Assembly: GCF_031624495.1 (NCBI RefSeq)
Contig: NZ_JAMQOP010000001.1
Location: forward strand, 1,178,001-1,242,000
Direction of reading: 5' to 3'
DNA length: 64,000 nucleotides
DNA from: Halogeometricum sp. S1BR25-6
Lineage (GTDB): Archaea > Halobacteriota > Halobacteria > Halobacteriales > Haloferacaceae
Below, piece after piece: positions 36,304 to 42,883 of the stretch. The notes below the pieces were generated by a model. That model made no database searches and was not told where the DNA came from. It saw only the letters and a list, made by a program, of their open reading frames with translations. A program made the position numbers and the translations under genes. How positions within the stretch are numbered: the first letter of the stretch is position 1; each line of letters begins with the position of its first letter.

Positions 36304-36576
36304 TCAGCGTTCGGGGTCGACGTCGAGGTCGGACTCGGATTCGAACTGCGCCTCGCGCCGACGCTGCTCTTCGCGTATCCGCTCGTCCCACTCCTCGAAC
36401 AGTCCGTACTCCGTCATCGTGGTCATCCCCGCGATGGCCGCCCGGAGTTTGATTCCGATGAGCGGAATCTCCGCGACGGTGACGACCACGTCCGCGTCGA
36501 GGACGGCGCCGTCGCGCAGGAGCACGTCCACGAGGTCGACCACGGCGTCGTCGTCACTCGGCGGGTCCGGTTCCAT
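36304..36576 (-). CDS. gvpM: gas vesicle protein GvpM
   Basis: 90 residues from the ATG at 36576, a GvpA/J-like paralogue. Core: VVDLVDVLLRDGAVLDADVVVTVAEIPLIGIKLRAAIAGMTTM, which parallels the GvpA shell helix-strand pattern, followed by a charged helix. A longer in-frame start at 36606 adds only Arg-rich sequence. It overlaps the end of gvpL by 23 bases and is the last gene of the leftward gvp operon. In Halobacterium GvpM is essential for vesicle nucleation or assembly. Confidence 0.9.
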   Translation of the reverse strand: MEPDPPSDDDAVVDLVDVLLRDGAVLDADVVVTVAEIPLIGIKLRAAIAGMTTMTEYGLFEEWDERIREEQRRREAQFESESDLDVDPER

Positions 36577-37471
36577 TCTCCTCTCTCTCCGTTCCCGTCT
36601 CCGCATCTTTTCTCTCCGTCCCTCCCTCCGAATCCGCGGGTTCGAGCGCGTCCGGCGCGAACGTGTACGGCGGCCACGGGCCGGTGAACCGGACGGACGC
36701 CCCGTCCTCGTCGGCGACGGTGTCGAGGTACTCGCCGACGGCGTCGCACTCCCCCTCGTCGGCGAGGACGGCGAACCGGGCCGTCGGTCCCGTCGGCGCC
36801 TCGGTCAGCGGCGTCTGCGGCGCGTCGCCGAGTTCGCGCACCTCGTCGGTCATCGACTCCAGTTCCGCGACGAGTTCCTCCGAGCGCGCCCGACGCCGCC
36901 GATTCACGAGCGTCGAGAGCCGCTTGTCGTACTGCTTCTGCACGAGAAAAGCCGTCCCCTCGGAGGCGTCCGAGAGCTTCTCCCCCAGTTCGGCGAGTCG
37001 CTCGTCGTCGCTGCCGACCCGTTCGGCGAGGGCCTCGCGGTCCCACTCGACCTCCACGCGGTACTCCCACCGGCCGGCCAGCGAGTCCAGCGCGTCGGCG
37101 AGGGTTTCCTCGTTCGCTGCCAGCCACTCGCGAATCGTCTCGTCGCCGCCGCGGACGATGGTGTCGAAGCGGAACGGCACCGGCGTCCCGAACGCCTCGC
37201 CGACGTCCTCGACGGCGTCTTGGTGGTCGTACAACCACTCGCGCACCTCGTCGGGCGCGTCCGACTCGTAGGGGTCGCTGCGCTCGTGGACGATCGCCGA
37301 GAGTCGCTCGGTCGAGACCACGGAGAGCGATGCGCCGCCGACGCCCGCGGCGTCGAGTCGCGCCGCCGCGTCGTCGTCCCGACGGACGACGCAGTAGAGG
37401 TAGCGCCCGTCCTCGTCGGCGCCATCGGCCGCGTCGTCGTCCGCACCGGGCGCACCGTCAGCGTCGCTCAC
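36554..37471 (-). CDS. gvpL: gas vesicle protein GvpL
   Basis: 305 residues from GTG 37471 (ATG 37501 is possible but gives an Arg-rich start). GvpF/L family: [12 protein letters not shown] opens the N-terminal half; the C-terminal half contains [19 protein letters not shown] and ends with the shared [12 protein letters not shown] motif. GvpL is reported to interact with most other accessory Gvps in Halobacterium. It has an extra acidic/Thr-rich C-terminal tail. Overlaps gvpK by 14 bases and gvpM by 23 bases, so tight translational coupling. Confidence 0.93.
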
Positions 37472-37808
37472 GCGCCCCTCCCGCGTCCGGCGGCGCCGCA
37501 CCGTCGTCGCCCCTCCGACGCTCCTCGGTGCGGACTTGATGGACGGCGTCGGCGACGAGCGAATCCAGGTCGCCGCGGAGTTGGTCGACCTGCCCGTCTA
37601 TCTCTTGGTCCTCCTTCAACCGTTCGAGGTCCTCCTCCAACCGGGCGAGGTGGCTCCCGAGGCGCTCTATCTCCTCGTCGGTGAGGCTCCCCGACTCCAT
37701 GCGCCGAATCGCCTCGCGTTCGAGGGCGTCGACGAGAATCTCCACGACGGCGACGACGACGGCCGTCAGTCCGTTCGCACCGTCCTCGTCGACTTCGACG
37801 GTCGTCAT
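37458..37808 (-). CDS. gvpK: gas vesicle protein GvpK
   Basis: 116 residues. The GvpK core is clear: [40 protein letters not shown] followed by a coiled [12 protein letters not shown] helix and a [14 protein letters not shown] segment. A short Gly/Arg tail is appended. ATGA overlap with the end of gvpJ. Reported essential for vesicle formation in Halobacterium. Confidence 0.94.
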
Positions 37809-38356
37809 TCGTCATCCCCCTCGTCGTCCGCGTCGTCGGCGTCTTCAGCTTCTCCGGTATCCTCGCCCCCGTCACCGCTCTCTGCCTCTCCGCCGCTCGC
37901 GTTCTCGCTCTCGACCTCGTTTTCGGCTTCGGCCTCGGCCTCGGCCTCGGGGTCTCCCCCGCCCGCACCTCCGCTCTCGTCGGCCGACCGCTCGTCGTCC
38001 GACTCGCCTACCGTCGCGTTCATCACGTCGACGGAGCGGTCCTCGCGGTCCTCCTCCGCCTCGTCGCGCCGCTCCTCTTCGAGTCCGGGTCGCCCCGACG
38101 GCGACATTTTGGCCTGCCGTCGGCGCTGGCTGGCCGCCTCGACGGCCTCCATGTCGGTTCCGGAGGGGAACTCCAGACCGAACTCCGAGGCCGTCTCGAA
38201 CGACGCCAGCGCCGCCCGGAGGCGGATGCCGAGCAGTTCCGTCTCGCCGACGGAGACGACGATGTCGGCGTTGAGCACGACGCCCTTGTCGAGGAGGAGT
38301 TCGACCACGTCCGCGAGGCTGTCGGAGTCGCGCCCCGGGCGGACCGGATCAGGCAT
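37805..38356 (-). CDS. gvpJ: gas vesicle protein GvpJ with long acidic tail
   Basis: 183 residues. Residues 12-60 are a GvpA-like core: [43 protein letters not shown]. The family is usually about 100-115 residues; here ~110 residues of hydrophilic, mostly acidic sequence follow ([19 protein letters not shown] and similar), ending in Asp/Glu only. Whether the tail acts as a chaperone-like brush or is halophilic padding is unknown. Overlaps the preceding gene by 8 bases and gvpK by 4. Confidence 0.92.
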
Positions 38357-39230
38357 CGTCTTCCTCCTCGGCGAACTGGTCGAACCGCGACCCGTACACC
38401 CGCTTCCGGTTCGGCGCGTTGGAGTACTTCGACTCGGCCGGCACCGTCGAGTACTTCGTGTCGGCGTCGGCGACGCCGTGCGAGGCGGCGAGCGTCGAGT
38501 ACGCCGTCGGGTTCCGGGAGTCGGGCTGACCGGTCCGCTCGACGCGCTTGCGGTTCTCCTCGCGCAGTCGCTCGATACGGTCGTGCGTGGCGACGAGTCC
38601 CTCGCGGAACTCGTCGACGCTGTCGGAGAGCTTCGACTGTATCGCGGTCTGGTAGGCCTCGTCGGGCAGTTCGATGTCGTCTCTGTCGTCGTCGTCGCCC
38701 ATCCCCACCGCCTCCTTGGCGTCCTCGGCGTCGACGTCGATGAGTTCGTCCTCGTCGTCCTCGTCGTCGGTGAGGTCGTCGACGAACGGGAGGGTGTCCT
38801 CGTCGTCGGTCTCGTCGAGTTCTTCGAGGGCCTCCTCGAACTCACGTTTGTTCCGCCAGACGTCGCGTACGTCGACGGAGTCCCAGAGTTCGCCGATGTC
38901 GATGATGGCGAGCAGTTTCCGGAGGCGAACCGCCTCCTCGGGGTCGGCGTTCGTTATCGCCTCGGAGAGTTTCTCCTCGTGAATCACCTCGTCGGCGTCC
39001 TCGTGGTCGACGGCGTCGGGGAGGTCCGTCAGGTCGACGGCGTCGAGCAGTTCGTCCGCCTCGTCGACGACGACCTGCAGGTCGCGCAGAATCTCCGCGA
39101 CCTCTGAGTCGTCCTCGCCGTCCATCGCGGCCTCGCTCAGTTCCAGCGCTCTGATGACGAGCGAGGAGACGTCCATCTCGTCGTTCCCGCTCTCTTCTTC
39201 CGCCCCGTCCGCTCGCTCCTCGCCGCTCAT
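38349..39230 (-). CDS. unrecognised acidic protein in the gvpH/gvpI position of the gas vesicle operon
   Basis: 293 residues at the place where haloarchaeal clusters carry gvpH and gvpI. It shows neither an Hsp20 beta-sandwich (GvpH) nor the short basic build of GvpI. Layout: a helical N-terminal half with VIRALELSEAAMDGEDD, DLTDLPDAVDHEDADEV and LLAIIDIGELWDSVDVRDVW; an acidic linker (TDDEDDEDELIDVDAED); a coiled-coil LSDSVDEFREGLVATHDRI; and a C-terminal motif with SRNPTAYSTLA, KYSTVP, KYSNAP then RKRVYGSRF. The repeated YST/YSN-P units and basic RVYG ending are similar to C-termini I have seen in unassigned haloarchaeal proteins. ATGA overlap with gvpG and 8-base overlap with gvpJ make it a genuine operon member. 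Confidence 0.82.
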   Translation of the reverse strand: MSGEERADGAEEESGNDEMDVSSLVIRALELSEAAMDGEDDSEVAEILRDLQVVVDEADELLDAVDLTDLPDAVDHEDADEVIHEEKLSEAITNADPEEAVRLRKLLAIIDIGELWDSVDVRDVWRNKREFEEALEELDETDDEDTLPFVDDLTDDEDDEDELIDVDAEDAKEAVGMGDDDDRDDIELPDEAYQTAIQSKLSDSVDEFREGLVATHDRIERLREENRKRVERTGQPDSRNPTAYSTLAASHGVADADTKYSTVPAESKYSNAPNRKRVYGSRFDQFAEEEDDA

Positions 39231-39478
39231 CGCTGCACCACCACCTTGTCGCTGAGTCGCTCGCGGGCGCGTTCGGCCGCGTCGAGTTCGGACTCCAATC
39301 GGGCGCGCTCGCGTTCGTACTCCTCCTCGTCGCGTTCGCCGATTTCGTAGAGCAGTTGGTTCTCCTTGAGGTCGCTCTGGATGGACTCGGTGTCATACAT
39401 CTCCTGGACCGCCAGCGAGTGGAGCACGTCCACCACGTTCGTGATGGGCCACAGGAGGATGTCGTCGAGGAGGAACAC
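39227..39478 (-). CDS. gvpG: gas vesicle protein GvpG
   Basis: 83 residues from GTG 39478: FLLDDILLWPITNVVDVLHSLAVQEMYD followed by an amphipathic/coiled charged helix (REEEYERERARLESELDAAERA-type). The long frame to 39526 would overlap gvpF; the GTG two bases after the gvpF TAA is the better start. ATGA overlap with the next gene. GvpG is an essential accessory protein in Halobacterium. Confidence 0.92.
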   Translation of the reverse strand: MFLLDDILLWPITNVVDVLHSLAVQEMYDTESIQSDLKENQLLYEIGERDEEEYERERARLESELDAAERARERLSDKVVVQR

Positions 39479-39480
39479 GG

Positions 39481-40104
39481 TTACTGCGCCTCGATTTCGA
39501 CGTCGACGAAGTTGTAGGGCGCCCACGGCCCCGTGTACTGTACGGTCGCGTCGGGATAGTCGTCTTCGAGTTCGGAGACGGCCTCGCCGAACGCTTCCTG
39601 GGCGTCGCGGTCGACGAGGTACGACCGGTTGAACAGCAGGCGCTCGGAGTAGAGGTCGTTCTCGGCCTCCTGGTCGCTGACGGCGACGAGTCGCTCCGAG
39701 ACGTCCGCCGTGACGTCCTCGCGCGTCAGGGACTCGTCGTCGGGACCGACGAGTTTGACCCCGAGTTCGACCTTCCCGTCGACGTCCATCAGCGCCTTCC
39801 GGAAGGCGCGTCGCCCCCCGCGCATGACGCTTTTGAGCGTGCGAGCGCTCTTGAACGCCATCCCGTACTGCATCGGCACGACCGTCCGGCCCTCGCCCTC
39901 CATCATCACCTCTCTGAGCACCTCGTCGTGCGCCCGCGTGTTCTCGTCCGTGCGCTCGACGTCGACGTCGTCGATGGGCGTCACCACCGCCGACAGCGTC
40001 CGGAACGTCACGGTCTGGACCGGGCTTTCCCCTTCGACGCCCTCGATGTCCAGTTCGAGGTCCTCGGCCTCGATAACGCCGTACGCGTACAGATGAGAAC
40101 TCAT
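39481..40104 (-). CDS. gvpF: gas vesicle protein GvpF
   Basis: 207 residues. Opens with HLYAYGVIEAEDLEL, continues with VPMQYGMAFKSARTLKSVM and LFNRSYLVDRDAQEAF, and closes with the GvpF/L signature VQYTGPWAPYNFVDVEI. In Halobacterium GvpF binds GvpA and probably helps it enter the growing shell. First gene of the leftward operon; a TATA element lies at 40177-40183, giving a leader of about 50 bases. Confidence 0.94.
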   Translation of the reverse strand: MSSHLYAYGVIEAEDLELDIEGVEGESPVQTVTFRTLSAVVTPIDDVDVERTDENTRAHDEVLREVMMEGEGRTVVPMQYGMAFKSARTLKSVMRGGRRAFRKALMDVDGKVELGVKLVGPDDESLTREDVTADVSERLVAVSDQEAENDLYSERLLFNRSYLVDRDAQEAFGEAVSELEDDYPDATVQYTGPWAPYNFVDVEIEAQ

Positions 40105-40176
40105 AGCAGTGTTGGTGGGAAATTCGCCGGATGAACCCGTATAGCTTGTGGCTCGCTCGCGGTCGGAACGAAACAG

Positions 40177-40183
40177 AAATATA
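40177..40183 (-). promoter_or_regulatory. TATA box for the gvpF-M operon
   Basis: TATATTT on the minus strand within the 155-base gvpF-gvpA divergent region; predicted start about 27 bases further on, around 40150. Confidence 0.55.
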
Positions 40184-40229
40184 CCTGAACGGGACTGTCA
40201 GCCGCTATTTTTCTCGGACGGCCGAATGA

Positions 40230-40237
40230 TTAAATAA
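40230..40237 (+). promoter_or_regulatory. TATA box for gvpA-gvpO
   Basis: TTAAATAA centred about 27 bases upstream of the gvpA ATG (40260). A GGTGA element at 40251-40255 sits directly before the ATG. No recognisable GvpE activating element is seen, in line with the absence of gvpD/E. Confidence 0.6.
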
Positions 40238-40259
40238 CGTGACGCGACGAGGTGAAGTG

Positions 40260-40535
40260 ATGCCAGCAGATAGCCCGGATGCTTCCAGTTTGGCCGACGT
40301 GCTGGACCGAATTCTCGACAAGGGGATCGTTATCGACATATGGGCGCGCGTGTCCGTCGTCGGTATCGAGATCCTGACCGTCGAGGCGCGTATCGTCGCC
40401 GCCTCGGTGGACACCTTCCTGACGTACGCTTCAGAGATGGCGAAAATCGAAAAAGCCAGTCAGGGGGACTTAGAGGAACTCCAAGAGTTGGATATCCGGC
40501 GCGCGAACCCGCAGGCGGCGCCCGACGCCTCCTGA
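40260..40535 (+). CDS. gvpA: gas vesicle major structural protein GvpA
   Basis: 91 residues. The nearly invariant shell core is present: [40 protein letters not shown] and [15 protein letters not shown]. It forms the ribbed helical wall of the gas vesicle. The C-terminal tail ([19 protein letters not shown]) is longer and less Ala/Glu-rich than in Halobacterium GvpA (about 76 residues). The in-frame start at 40239 was rejected because it lies in the promoter. gvpO follows 12 bases downstream. Confidence 0.97.
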
Positions 40536-40547
40536 GGAGGGTGACCC

Positions 40548-41096
40548 GTGCCCGACCAGTGTAGGGCCGTTACCGAGGGTGGCGAACGGTGTTCGCGACC
40601 GGCGAACGAAAACGGTTTCTGTCACCAACACGGCCCGGAGAACGAAACCGTCGACGAGGCCGACTCCGACGACCCCGGCGACCCGTCGGACCCCGACGCG
40701 GACGACGACCGGAAGGATTCCACGATGGCAGACGACACAGACTCCAACGAAACGACCGACGACGCCGAATCGCAGGAGGAGACCGAGTCATCCGACGAGA
40801 CCGAATCGTCGGACGAGACCGGATCGACCGACGAATCGACCATCGTGACCGTCCGGGACAAGGTGAGAGACGAGGTGCCCCAACTCATCGGCCGCGAGTT
40901 GGACGGCGTCACTAGCCTGATGCAGACCGAGGACGGTTGGATGGCGACGGTCGAACTCGTCGAACGTCGTTCGGTGCCGGACACGCAGGACCTCATCGGG
41001 CAGTACGAGGTATCGATCGGAGACGACGCGGTTATCGACGGCTACCGTCGCCTGGAGACGTACCGCCGGGCCGAGGGCCCGGAATACGACGCCTGA
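40548..41096 (+). CDS. gvpO: gas vesicle protein GvpO with N-terminal Cys/His-rich extension
   Basis: 182 residues from GTG 40548. The C-terminal ~85 residues are GvpO: VTVRDKVRDEVPQLIGRELDG, GWMATVELVERRSVPDTQDL and IGQYEVSIGDD. Residues 5-28 form a CCCH cluster (Cys5, Cys15, Cys25, His28) of the CxA-T-GxRC-R-CxxH kind, followed by an acidic linker with DE/SS repeats. A strong Shine-Dalgarno (GAGGAGGG, 40534-40541) precedes the GTG. An internal ATG at 40725 (with GGAAGG 9 bases before) would give a 123-residue protein of normal GvpO length. GvpO is essential in Halobacterium. Confidence 0.9.
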   Translation: MPDQCRAVTEGGERCSRPANENGFCHQHGPENETVDEADSDDPGDPSDPDADDDRKDSTMADDTDSNETTDDAESQEETESSDETESSDETGSTDESTIVTVRDKVRDEVPQLIGRELDGVTSLMQTEDGWMATVELVERRSVPDTQDLIGQYEVSIGDDAVIDGYRRLETYRRAEGPEYDA

Positions 41097-41113
41097 GGCC
41101 GAGCGTCGGCCGA

Positions 41114-41118
41114 TTTTT
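41114..41118 (+). terminator. T-run after gvpO
   Basis: CCGATTTTTCTCTC, about 18 bases after the gvpO stop codon. Confidence 0.45.
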
Positions 41119-41192
41119 CTCTCGAACCGGAGTCGCGGAGCCACGTCCGTTTCGGTGACAAGTTGATAACGCTCGGGTGCGTACTGAGGGTG

Positions 41193-41465
41193 ATGTCACT
41201 CACACTCGTTCCGTTGTTCCCGGGTATCCCCGGCGGTCCCGAACTCCTCATCGTCCTCCTCATCGTCGTCCTCCTGTTCGGCGCGAACAAACTCCCGAAA
41301 CTCGCGCGCTCGTCCGGGCAGGCGATGGGTGAGTTCAAGCGCGGCCGCGAGGAAATCGACCAAGAACTGCGCTCGATGAGCGAGCAGGACGCCGACGCCG
41401 ACGCGGACGACGCCGAGTCGTCCCCCGAGACCGAAGAGGAGTCCGACCGAACCTCGGCCGCCTGA
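41193..41465 (+). CDS. tatA: Sec-independent protein translocase TatA
   Basis: 90-residue single-TM component of the twin-arginine pathway, the main export route in haloarchaea. TM helix LLIVLLIVVLLFGANKLPKLARS has the FGxxKLP hinge, followed by an amphipathic helix (GQAMGEFKRGREEID) and an acidic tail. ATG at 41193 chosen over 41163 for family length. No tatC is adjacent. It lies 96 bases after gvpO. Confidence 0.9.
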   Translation: MSLTLVPLFPGIPGGPELLIVLLIVVLLFGANKLPKLARSSGQAMGEFKRGREEIDQELRSMSEQDADADADDAESSPETEEESDRTSAA

Positions 41466-41587
41466 ACCGGAACCGGAACCGACCACGGTTTCTCGACGAG
41501 ACTTCCCGCCGCGAGCGGTGCCGCCGGTCGAGGGCGACGACGCGGGCACCGAAGCCGTGACGTCGGGTCGACTTCGGGCCGTCCCGC

Positions 41588-42883
41588 TCAGTCGCCCACC
41601 GCGGCGTCCGGGGCCGTCGCCCTTGCGGTGCGGTAGTACGTCCCCAAGAAGACCCCCGTGGCGACGACGATGAACGCCGCCGCGGTGAGGAAGGCGGCCG
41701 TCGTCGACACGAAGTCCTTGATGCTGCCGACGAGCACCGGTCCGGCGACCTGTCCGATTTTCCAGGAGAGGGAGCGCAGCGACATGCTCGACGCGACGGA
41801 GTCGAACCGCTCGCCCTCCTCGACGAACAGCGCCATGCTCGCCGGGAGTCGGATGCTGTCGGCGACGCCGAGGATACCGTAGGCGGCGAACAGCGCGAAG
41901 AACGCGCCGCCGAGCGCCTGCGACCGGCCGAAGGCGTGGAACTCGAACGGGTCGATGGCCCCCTCGAAGAAGAAGGAGAGGGGGATAAGCGCCGTCCCGA
42001 GACCGTACAGTATCGCGCCGGCGGCGACGAACAGGTGTCTCGACCCGAATCGGTCGGTCAGGTCTCCCATGTAGCCCTGCGCGAGCGTCTTCGTCAGTTT
42101 CCCCCCGGCGAGAATCCAGCCGATGGCGAACTCGTGGATACCGAACTCCACTTTCGCCACGATAGGCAGGAAGATGATGACGGCCATCTTGCCGACGCTG
42201 AACGCGAGTCGAAAGACGACCAGCGAGCGGATCATCGGCCGTTCGAGGAGTGCGCGGAGCGTCTCCCTCCCCGTCGCTTCCTCGGGGTCCTTCCGGCCGC
42301 CGGGGTTCTCGCGCAGGTAGCGCCAGACGAGGAGGAACGCGCCGACGGTGACGGCGCTGAGCACCGTGTAGACGACGTGCGTCTGGTAGGCGTAGAGGAG
42401 GTAGCCGCCGACGACGTCGCCCGCCAGACTGGAGAAGGCGGCGACCTGGTTGTACGTGCCCAGCCACCGACCGCTGGCGTCGTCGGGGCTTATCTCGCCG
42501 ACGACGGTCGACCCGGTTATCCAGAGGAGGCTCGCACCCAACCCTTGCCCCATCCGCATGAGGATGACGTGGACGGAGCTCTGAACGAAGGCGAATCCGA
42601 CGAAGACGGCGACGTTGATGGCGAGGCCGGCCAGCAGGTAGCGCTTGGCGTTGCCGGTGTCTATCTTGCGACCGAGCGGCAGGACGATGAGCAGTTGGAC
42701 CGCGGCGAAGGCGGTGCCGAACAACCCCTCGACGAATCCGGTGGTTCCGAACTGCTCGGCGTAGAGGGCGAGGGCGATGAGGATAGTCGAGTACGCTTGA
42801 CTGCGCGCGAACGCCGTTCCGGCCAGCGCCGCGAACTCCCGGTCCCGAAGGAGGCCCAACGAGCCTCCCGCCTCTTCGCCCAT
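41588..42883 (-). CDS. MFS transporter
   Basis: 431 residues with twelve predicted TM helices. The MFS motif-A-like loop is VLPLGRKIDTGNAKRYL between TM2 and TM3; similar GDLTDRFGSRHLFV in the second half. N-terminus MGEEAGGSLGLLRDREFAALAG is cytoplasmic. Substrate unknown; possibly a drug/sugar efflux type. Upstream 42884-43036 carries no other gene. Confidence 0.88.
   Translation of the reverse strand: MGEEAGGSLGLLRDREFAALAGTAFARSQAYSTILIALALYAEQFGTTGFVEGLFGTAFAAVQLLIVLPLGRKIDTGNAKRYLLAGLAINVAVFVGFAFVQSSVHVILMRMGQGLGASLLWITGSTVVGEISPDDASGRWLGTYNQVAAFSSLAGDVVGGYLLYAYQTHVVYTVLSAVTVGAFLLVWRYLRENPGGRKDPEEATGRETLRALLERPMIRSLVVFRLAFSVGKMAVIIFLPIVAKVEFGIHEFAIGWILAGGKLTKTLAQGYMGDLTDRFGSRHLFVAAGAILYGLGTALIPLSFFFEGAIDPFEFHAFGRSQALGGAFFALFAAYGILGVADSIRLPASMALFVEEGERFDSVASSMSLRSLSWKIGQVAGPVLVGSIKDFVSTTAAFLTAAAFIVVATGVFLGTYYRTARATAPDAAVGD

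Follow-up and report, generated by a model that had tools for sequence, protein, structure and literature searches.

A conserved Cys/His head on a halophile-type GvpO of Halogeometricum occupies an exchangeable N-terminal slot

GvpO is described as essential for haloarchaeal gas vesicles, and the same sources give its role as unknown (PMC4390858, PMC9501494). The Halobacterium protein is reported to bind GvpA both as monomer and multimer, to dimerise and to bind GvpN and GvpL (PMC9372576, PMC4390858, PMC9501494); like GvpN, it is also reported to bind GvpC through the C-terminal part in which GvpC carries its zinc finger (PMC9372576). Loci without gvpC and gvpDE are known from species of Halopiger, Haladaptatus, Natrinema, Natrialba and Natronobacterium, which are described as vesicle-negative (PMC4390858), and gas vacuoles are reported for Halogeometricum borinquense (PMC4187190). 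In Halobacterium salinarum (pNRC100 and pNRC200), GvpO has no N-terminal Cys/His domain, or head, and its cluster includes gvpC, gvpN, gvpD and gvpE. Such a head is nevertheless already catalogued, as NF045806 (GvpO_arch_Nterm) and as Pfam PF19067 (DUF5763), and is widespread in haloarchaea.

Here we describe a headed GvpO encoded in the window, a stretch of 64,000 nucleotides from Halogeometricum sp. S1BR25-6. Its GvpO domain and its place in the gvp cluster are those of the H. salinarum protein. The genes gvpA and gvpO lie on one strand; gvpF, gvpG, a long gvpI-like gene, gvpK and more gvp genes lie on the other (Table 1). The cluster is identified by gvpA upstream, by the divergent gvpF and gvpG families and by profile matches to gvpI/X and gvpK. 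The TGA stop codons of gvpA and gvpO are found at 40533-40535 and 41094-41096, and the gene order places neither gvpC nor gvpN between the two genes. Since the GTG of the long form follows the gvpA stop by 12 nt, and the Shine-Dalgarno (SD)-like site GAGGAGGG, with an exact 6-nt match to the anti-SD complement, overlaps that stop, we read gvpO as the second gene behind gvpA.

Table 1 Features of gvpO and its immediate surroundings in the window.
Feature	Position	Strand	Remarks
gvpA	40260..40535	+	Immediately 5' of gvpO; NF046092/PF00741 (profile scan began at the second codon)
SD-like site of the long form, GAGGAGGG	40534..40541	+	6 nt before GTG 40548; overlaps the gvpA stop
gvpO, long form	40548..41096	+	GTG start, 182 aa; PF05800 at 77.4 bits, cut-off 25
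CCCH head, residues 3-37	40554..40658	+	C5, C15, C25, H28; NF045806, DUF5763, conservation, model
Acidic linker, head to GvpO domain	40659..40808	+	Predicted disordered; pLDDT <50 at residues 38-57 and 63-91
SD-like GGAAGG	40711..40716	+	8 nt before ATG 40725; 4-nt match
Possible short form, 123 aa	40725..41096	+	ATG is codon 60 (Met60); sequence signals only
GvpO domain, residues 88-176	40809..41075	+	PF05800; modelled as one helix and four strands, cystatin-like

The gvp genes at 36304-41096 form a small cluster, in which profile searches gave no match for gvpC, gvpN, gvpD, gvpE or gvpH; it is possible that they constitute a natural minimal archaeal gas-vesicle set. GvpN stays below the cut-off in all five genomes of the genus and passes it in 3 of the 25 genomes searched. 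A single-sequence search for GvpC matched none of 15 relatives and recovered 4 of 6 gvpC-bearing genomes used as positive controls, so that the absence of gvpC from the genome of the window is deduced from this weaker test together with the profile search of the locus. Rfam gave no match within 38000-42000, and none of the 41 stretches of viral contigs that fitted a pattern was confirmed.

Translation from GTG 40548 yields the predicted 182-residue GvpO with Cys5, Cys15, Cys25 and His28. The head is exactly the NF045806 domain ("GvpO, halophile-type"), scored at 70.5 bits against a cut-off of 52, with residues 3-37 covering the entire model. A whole-protein scan with Pfam places DUF5763, a family without assigned function, on the same residues (51.7 bits, gathering cut-off 26.3). 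With an N-terminal NF045806 domain followed by a PF05800 domain, the protein is a halophile-type GvpO, the name under which public records list headed proteins.

The pattern C-x9-C-x9/10-C-x2-H is intact in all 117 distinct headed GvpOs recovered with a head profile, which points to strong constraint on the head. Among the 116 with equal spacing (the remaining one has a one-residue insertion), C5, A7, T9, C15, C25 and H28 are invariant. Because position 26 varies (74 Tyr, 31 His and 11 Phe; His26 in the window), the ligand set would consist of C5, C15, C25 and H28, and judging by the conservation of these residues the head is most likely a metal site. Lack of conservation in close relatives had been set beforehand as the second of two signs against the original prediction; instead, the outcome favours a real head, found in all five genomes of the genus. 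With the cut-offs of both families passed and the ligands kept throughout, we dismiss a chance cluster of Cys and His. Classical zf-CCCH fingers are spaced C-x8-C-x5-C-x3-H; the C-x9-C-x9-C-x2-H of the head sets it apart from them, and no such family occurs among its Pfam matches up to E 10. The HGGxSTG domain (NF041373) has a weakly similar Cys/His stretch, and on the head it reaches 14.9 bits, below its cut-off of 29. The best hit of a PDB sequence search had an E-value of 8.9, and the best PHROGs match to the head region, at E 0.011, is one without function.

Sampling of the class covered 391 genomes; a GvpO domain is encoded in 161 of them, and the head passes its cut-off in 120. A GvpO domain is missing from two of these 120 (G353 and G230), which sets the upper limit for headed genomes at 118 of the 161. 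The earlier remark that known haloarchaeal GvpOs lack the motif is thus right for Halobacterium and wrong for haloarchaea in general. Head and GvpO domain stand together in 71 frames of the first fetched set of loci plus the window; the extended set holds 240 GvpO frames, 185 of them distinct and 117 headed. Two GvpJ tails and two non-vesicle proteins also score above the NF045806 cut-off, so this model is diagnostic of a module rather than of GvpO itself. The latter two are proteins of about 256 aa with an N-terminal head (L201:9362-10129 in G353 and L202:9974-10744 in G230), and no gvp genes were found within their 20-kb loci. A further protein, with a C-terminal CCCH module, is shared by three genomes that belong to one family and has no gvp genes nearby (L205, L206 and L207; G061, G159 and G258). 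A limited literature search outside subscription papers found no paper naming the DUF5763, HGGxSTG or NF045806 domain.

The long form was modelled with AlphaFold2, with 50 aligned headed GvpOs as input. Block-mean pLDDT values are 81-91 for residues 1-30 and 82-97 for residues 101-170 of the GvpO domain. VIA-align groups the GvpO domain with cystatin/NTF2-like folds, with a best Z of 8.7, which is about the range usual for unrelated folds; its rows scarcely touched the head. Foldseek gave no match at E 0.001 with either this model or that of the SAP-like module described below.

We propose, with the balance of confidence standing about even, that the GvpO of the window is a halophile-type assembly factor whose head is a docking module, probably held by zinc and joined to the rest of the protein by a disordered acidic tether. 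A single zinc ion, bound by Cys5, Cys15, Cys25 and His28, would most likely hold the 35-residue head together, the acidic linker would connect it to the cystatin-like GvpO domain, and the head would bring GvpO to the assembling vesicle. In favour of this reading are the passed family cut-offs, the intact ligands, the confident model of the head, the predicted disorder of the linker, and the binding of GvpO to GvpA and to the GvpC tail reported from Halobacterium.

The N-terminus of GvpO is an exchangeable module slot with four states: CCCH, SAP-like, helix-hairpin-helix (HhH) and none, the last being the Halobacterium type. Among 176 distinct GvpOs from loci of at least 9 kb (nine rows from shorter loci were dropped), these number 109, 26, 5 and 36, respectively. 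The SAP-like stretch is conserved in GvpOs of Halococcus, Haloprofundus and Halocatena, and is modelled as three helices with moderate confidence; no Pfam or NCBIfam family matched it over the cut-off and Foldseek found no significant match, the putative label coming from the look of the sequence and from the model. HhH was recognized by PF14520 in all four GvpOs scanned, at 29.6-64.1 bits against a cut-off of 27. N-terminal HhH modules were seen at L109, L130, L141, L167 and L169, in L167 with our own profile only and in the others with Pfam as well. A tree built from 184 distinct GvpO domains (one of the 185 was dropped as a duplicate core or as short) requires no fewer than 13 changes of module. 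The domain is short, however, and resolves the tree poorly, and the changes forced by well-supported branches are only two for CCCH, two for SAP-like, three for none and one for HhH.

Both alternative modules resemble nucleic-acid-binding folds, so that a role with DNA or RNA would fit the exchange too. The head could then be a nucleic-acid-binding module through which GvpO binds gvp mRNA or DNA and controls gvpA and its neighbours, and a role of GvpO in the expression of gvpA, gvpC and gvpN is indeed cited in PMC11445434. We nonetheless consider this unlikely: the Halobacterium GvpO is essential yet module-less, folds of the HhH and SAP-like kinds are also used in contacts between proteins, and the linkers that carry all three types of head are very acidic. 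It is more improbable still that assembly can do without the head and that some other purpose, such as protein turnover or metal sensing, preserves it. Such a purpose would agree with the module-less fifth of the census and with genome G201, which appears to have lost its head and has about 110 bp of non-coding DNA between gvpA and a Met-started GvpO, but not with the strong constraint on the four ligands.

The docking reading gains from the occurrence of the CCCH module on a second vesicle protein. In G071 (L204:9935-10459) and G199 (L155:5050-5784) it forms the C-terminus of GvpJ, two cases in 70 GvpJ-like frames collected by a simple pattern search. In G071, 111 of 124 nt of the gvpJ module are identical to the 5' end of the gvpO of the same genome, of which it looks to be a recent copy. 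The module thus moves between vesicle proteins, and its arrival on GvpJ, a protein of the GvpA family, favours a role at the vesicle over one in gene regulation. In practice, since both GvpJ tails pass NF045806, this model alone can misname GvpJ as GvpO.

The C-terminal zinc-finger domain of haloarchaeal GvpC resembles the head in being small, terminal, Cys/His-bearing and placed on a vesicle protein. Its CxxC...H...H arrangement is unlike that of the head, and it never shares a locus with a headed GvpO. In the census above, limited to loci of 9 kb or more, gvpC accompanies 18 of the 36 module-less GvpOs and none of the 140 module-bearing ones. In clusters without GvpC, the head may do part of the work of the GvpC zinc-finger tail. 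However, gvpC presence amounts to a single change on the GvpO tree, so the mutual exclusion is one event and may be a coincidence; for the same reason we keep compensation for GvpC as an inference only. Nor is a module required where gvpC is missing, as the other 18 module-less GvpOs have no gvpC either.

As originally predicted, an in-frame ATG at 40725 with its own GGAAGG opens a frame of 123 residues. One gene might then give two products, a headed one from GTG 40548 and a headless one from ATG 40725, with their ratio tuning vesicle assembly; on the sequence signals at hand we regard this as doubtful. In the genus, the linker has an ATG in three of five genomes, and G001 and G004 have a GTG aligned to Met60 of the window, with GAGG upstream; codon choice is start-like in one of three cases. 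In the window, the codons that follow the ATG are GCA GAC GAC ACA. Stronger signals come from Halalkalicoccus-type genes, where the ATG is present in 9 of 12, with an SD in 7 against 1.9 expected from codon shuffling. In these nine genes the second codon ends in A in 9/9 cases at the internal start and 0/9 at the long start, and GC3 over codons 2-5 is 0.33 versus 0.81.

Across the family the internal ATG is not conserved: there is no linker Met in 54 of the 117 headed GvpOs. In the 100 outside the genus and the Halalkalicoccus type an ATG with SD occurs 9 times against 25.5 expected from codon shuffling; their internal Mets look ordinary, with an A-ending second codon in 10/68 and a GC3 of 0.80. 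The SD is in any case a weak criterion for a start, as a match of at least 4 nt precedes just 23 of 116 headed long-form starts. The site at GTG 40548 that had been called strong is present but carries less weight than that word suggests. Nor do we take an SD ahead of the internal ATG to prove that translation starts there, as most long starts have none and 25.5 cases are expected by chance in those 100 genes. Inspection by eye of the 60 nt upstream of the ATG, in the window and 11 relatives, revealed no A/T-rich box of a leaderless promoter.

Further indications of two products come from gene pairs. Loci with two GvpOs combine a module-bearing and a module-less copy in 14 of 15 cases (some clusters were fetched twice), and both forms thus exist, at least as gene pairs. 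A linker Met occurs in 0 of 8 distinct paired headed GvpOs versus 63 of 109 unpaired ones. The headless GvpO of G201 has the homologous Met as its first residue; gvpA precedes it, and the intervening DNA encodes no head. These counts are not independent, since the genes of Halalkalicoccus type and the pairs of Haladaptatus type each come from one clade, and an internal ATG that is the fossil of a pre-head start would explain the same facts. We observed two-gvpO loci in Haladaptatus and the like (L147, L166, L246, L247, L250, L255, L262 and L210) and in Halocatena and the like (L148, L212, L307 and L310); in the Haladaptatus-type loci, the second gvpO is on the opposite strand.

Altogether, the evidence for an internal start is suggestive in the window and in Halalkalicoccus-type genes, where the codons look start-like, and absent or unsupported elsewhere. 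The main GvpO product would be the long form, to which the short form from ATG 40725 may possibly be added. A broader scheme, which at present we hold to be quite improbable, would make GvpO a two-form swappable adaptor. Clusters without GvpC would use headed and headless GvpO together in vesicle assembly, with a CCCH, SAP-like or HhH head that is interchangeable and transferable to GvpJ; the two forms would be made from two genes in Haladaptatus and Halocatena, and from one gene, by internal initiation at the former GvpO start, in Halogeometricum and Halalkalicoccus. Within the reach of our literature search, which was limited and ran outside subscription papers, module exchange, transfer to GvpJ and the occurrence of headed and headless GvpOs in pairs appear to be undescribed, and no paper linking gvpO with helix-hairpin-helix was found.

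Laboratory knowledge of GvpO concerns the headless Halobacterium type, yet most sampled haloarchaeal genomes with a GvpO carry the headed type. A conserved and exchangeable head that is never found in a locus with gvpC and has moved to GvpJ offers a handle on what GvpO docks to, and this handle comes down to four residues, one 35-residue module and one codon.
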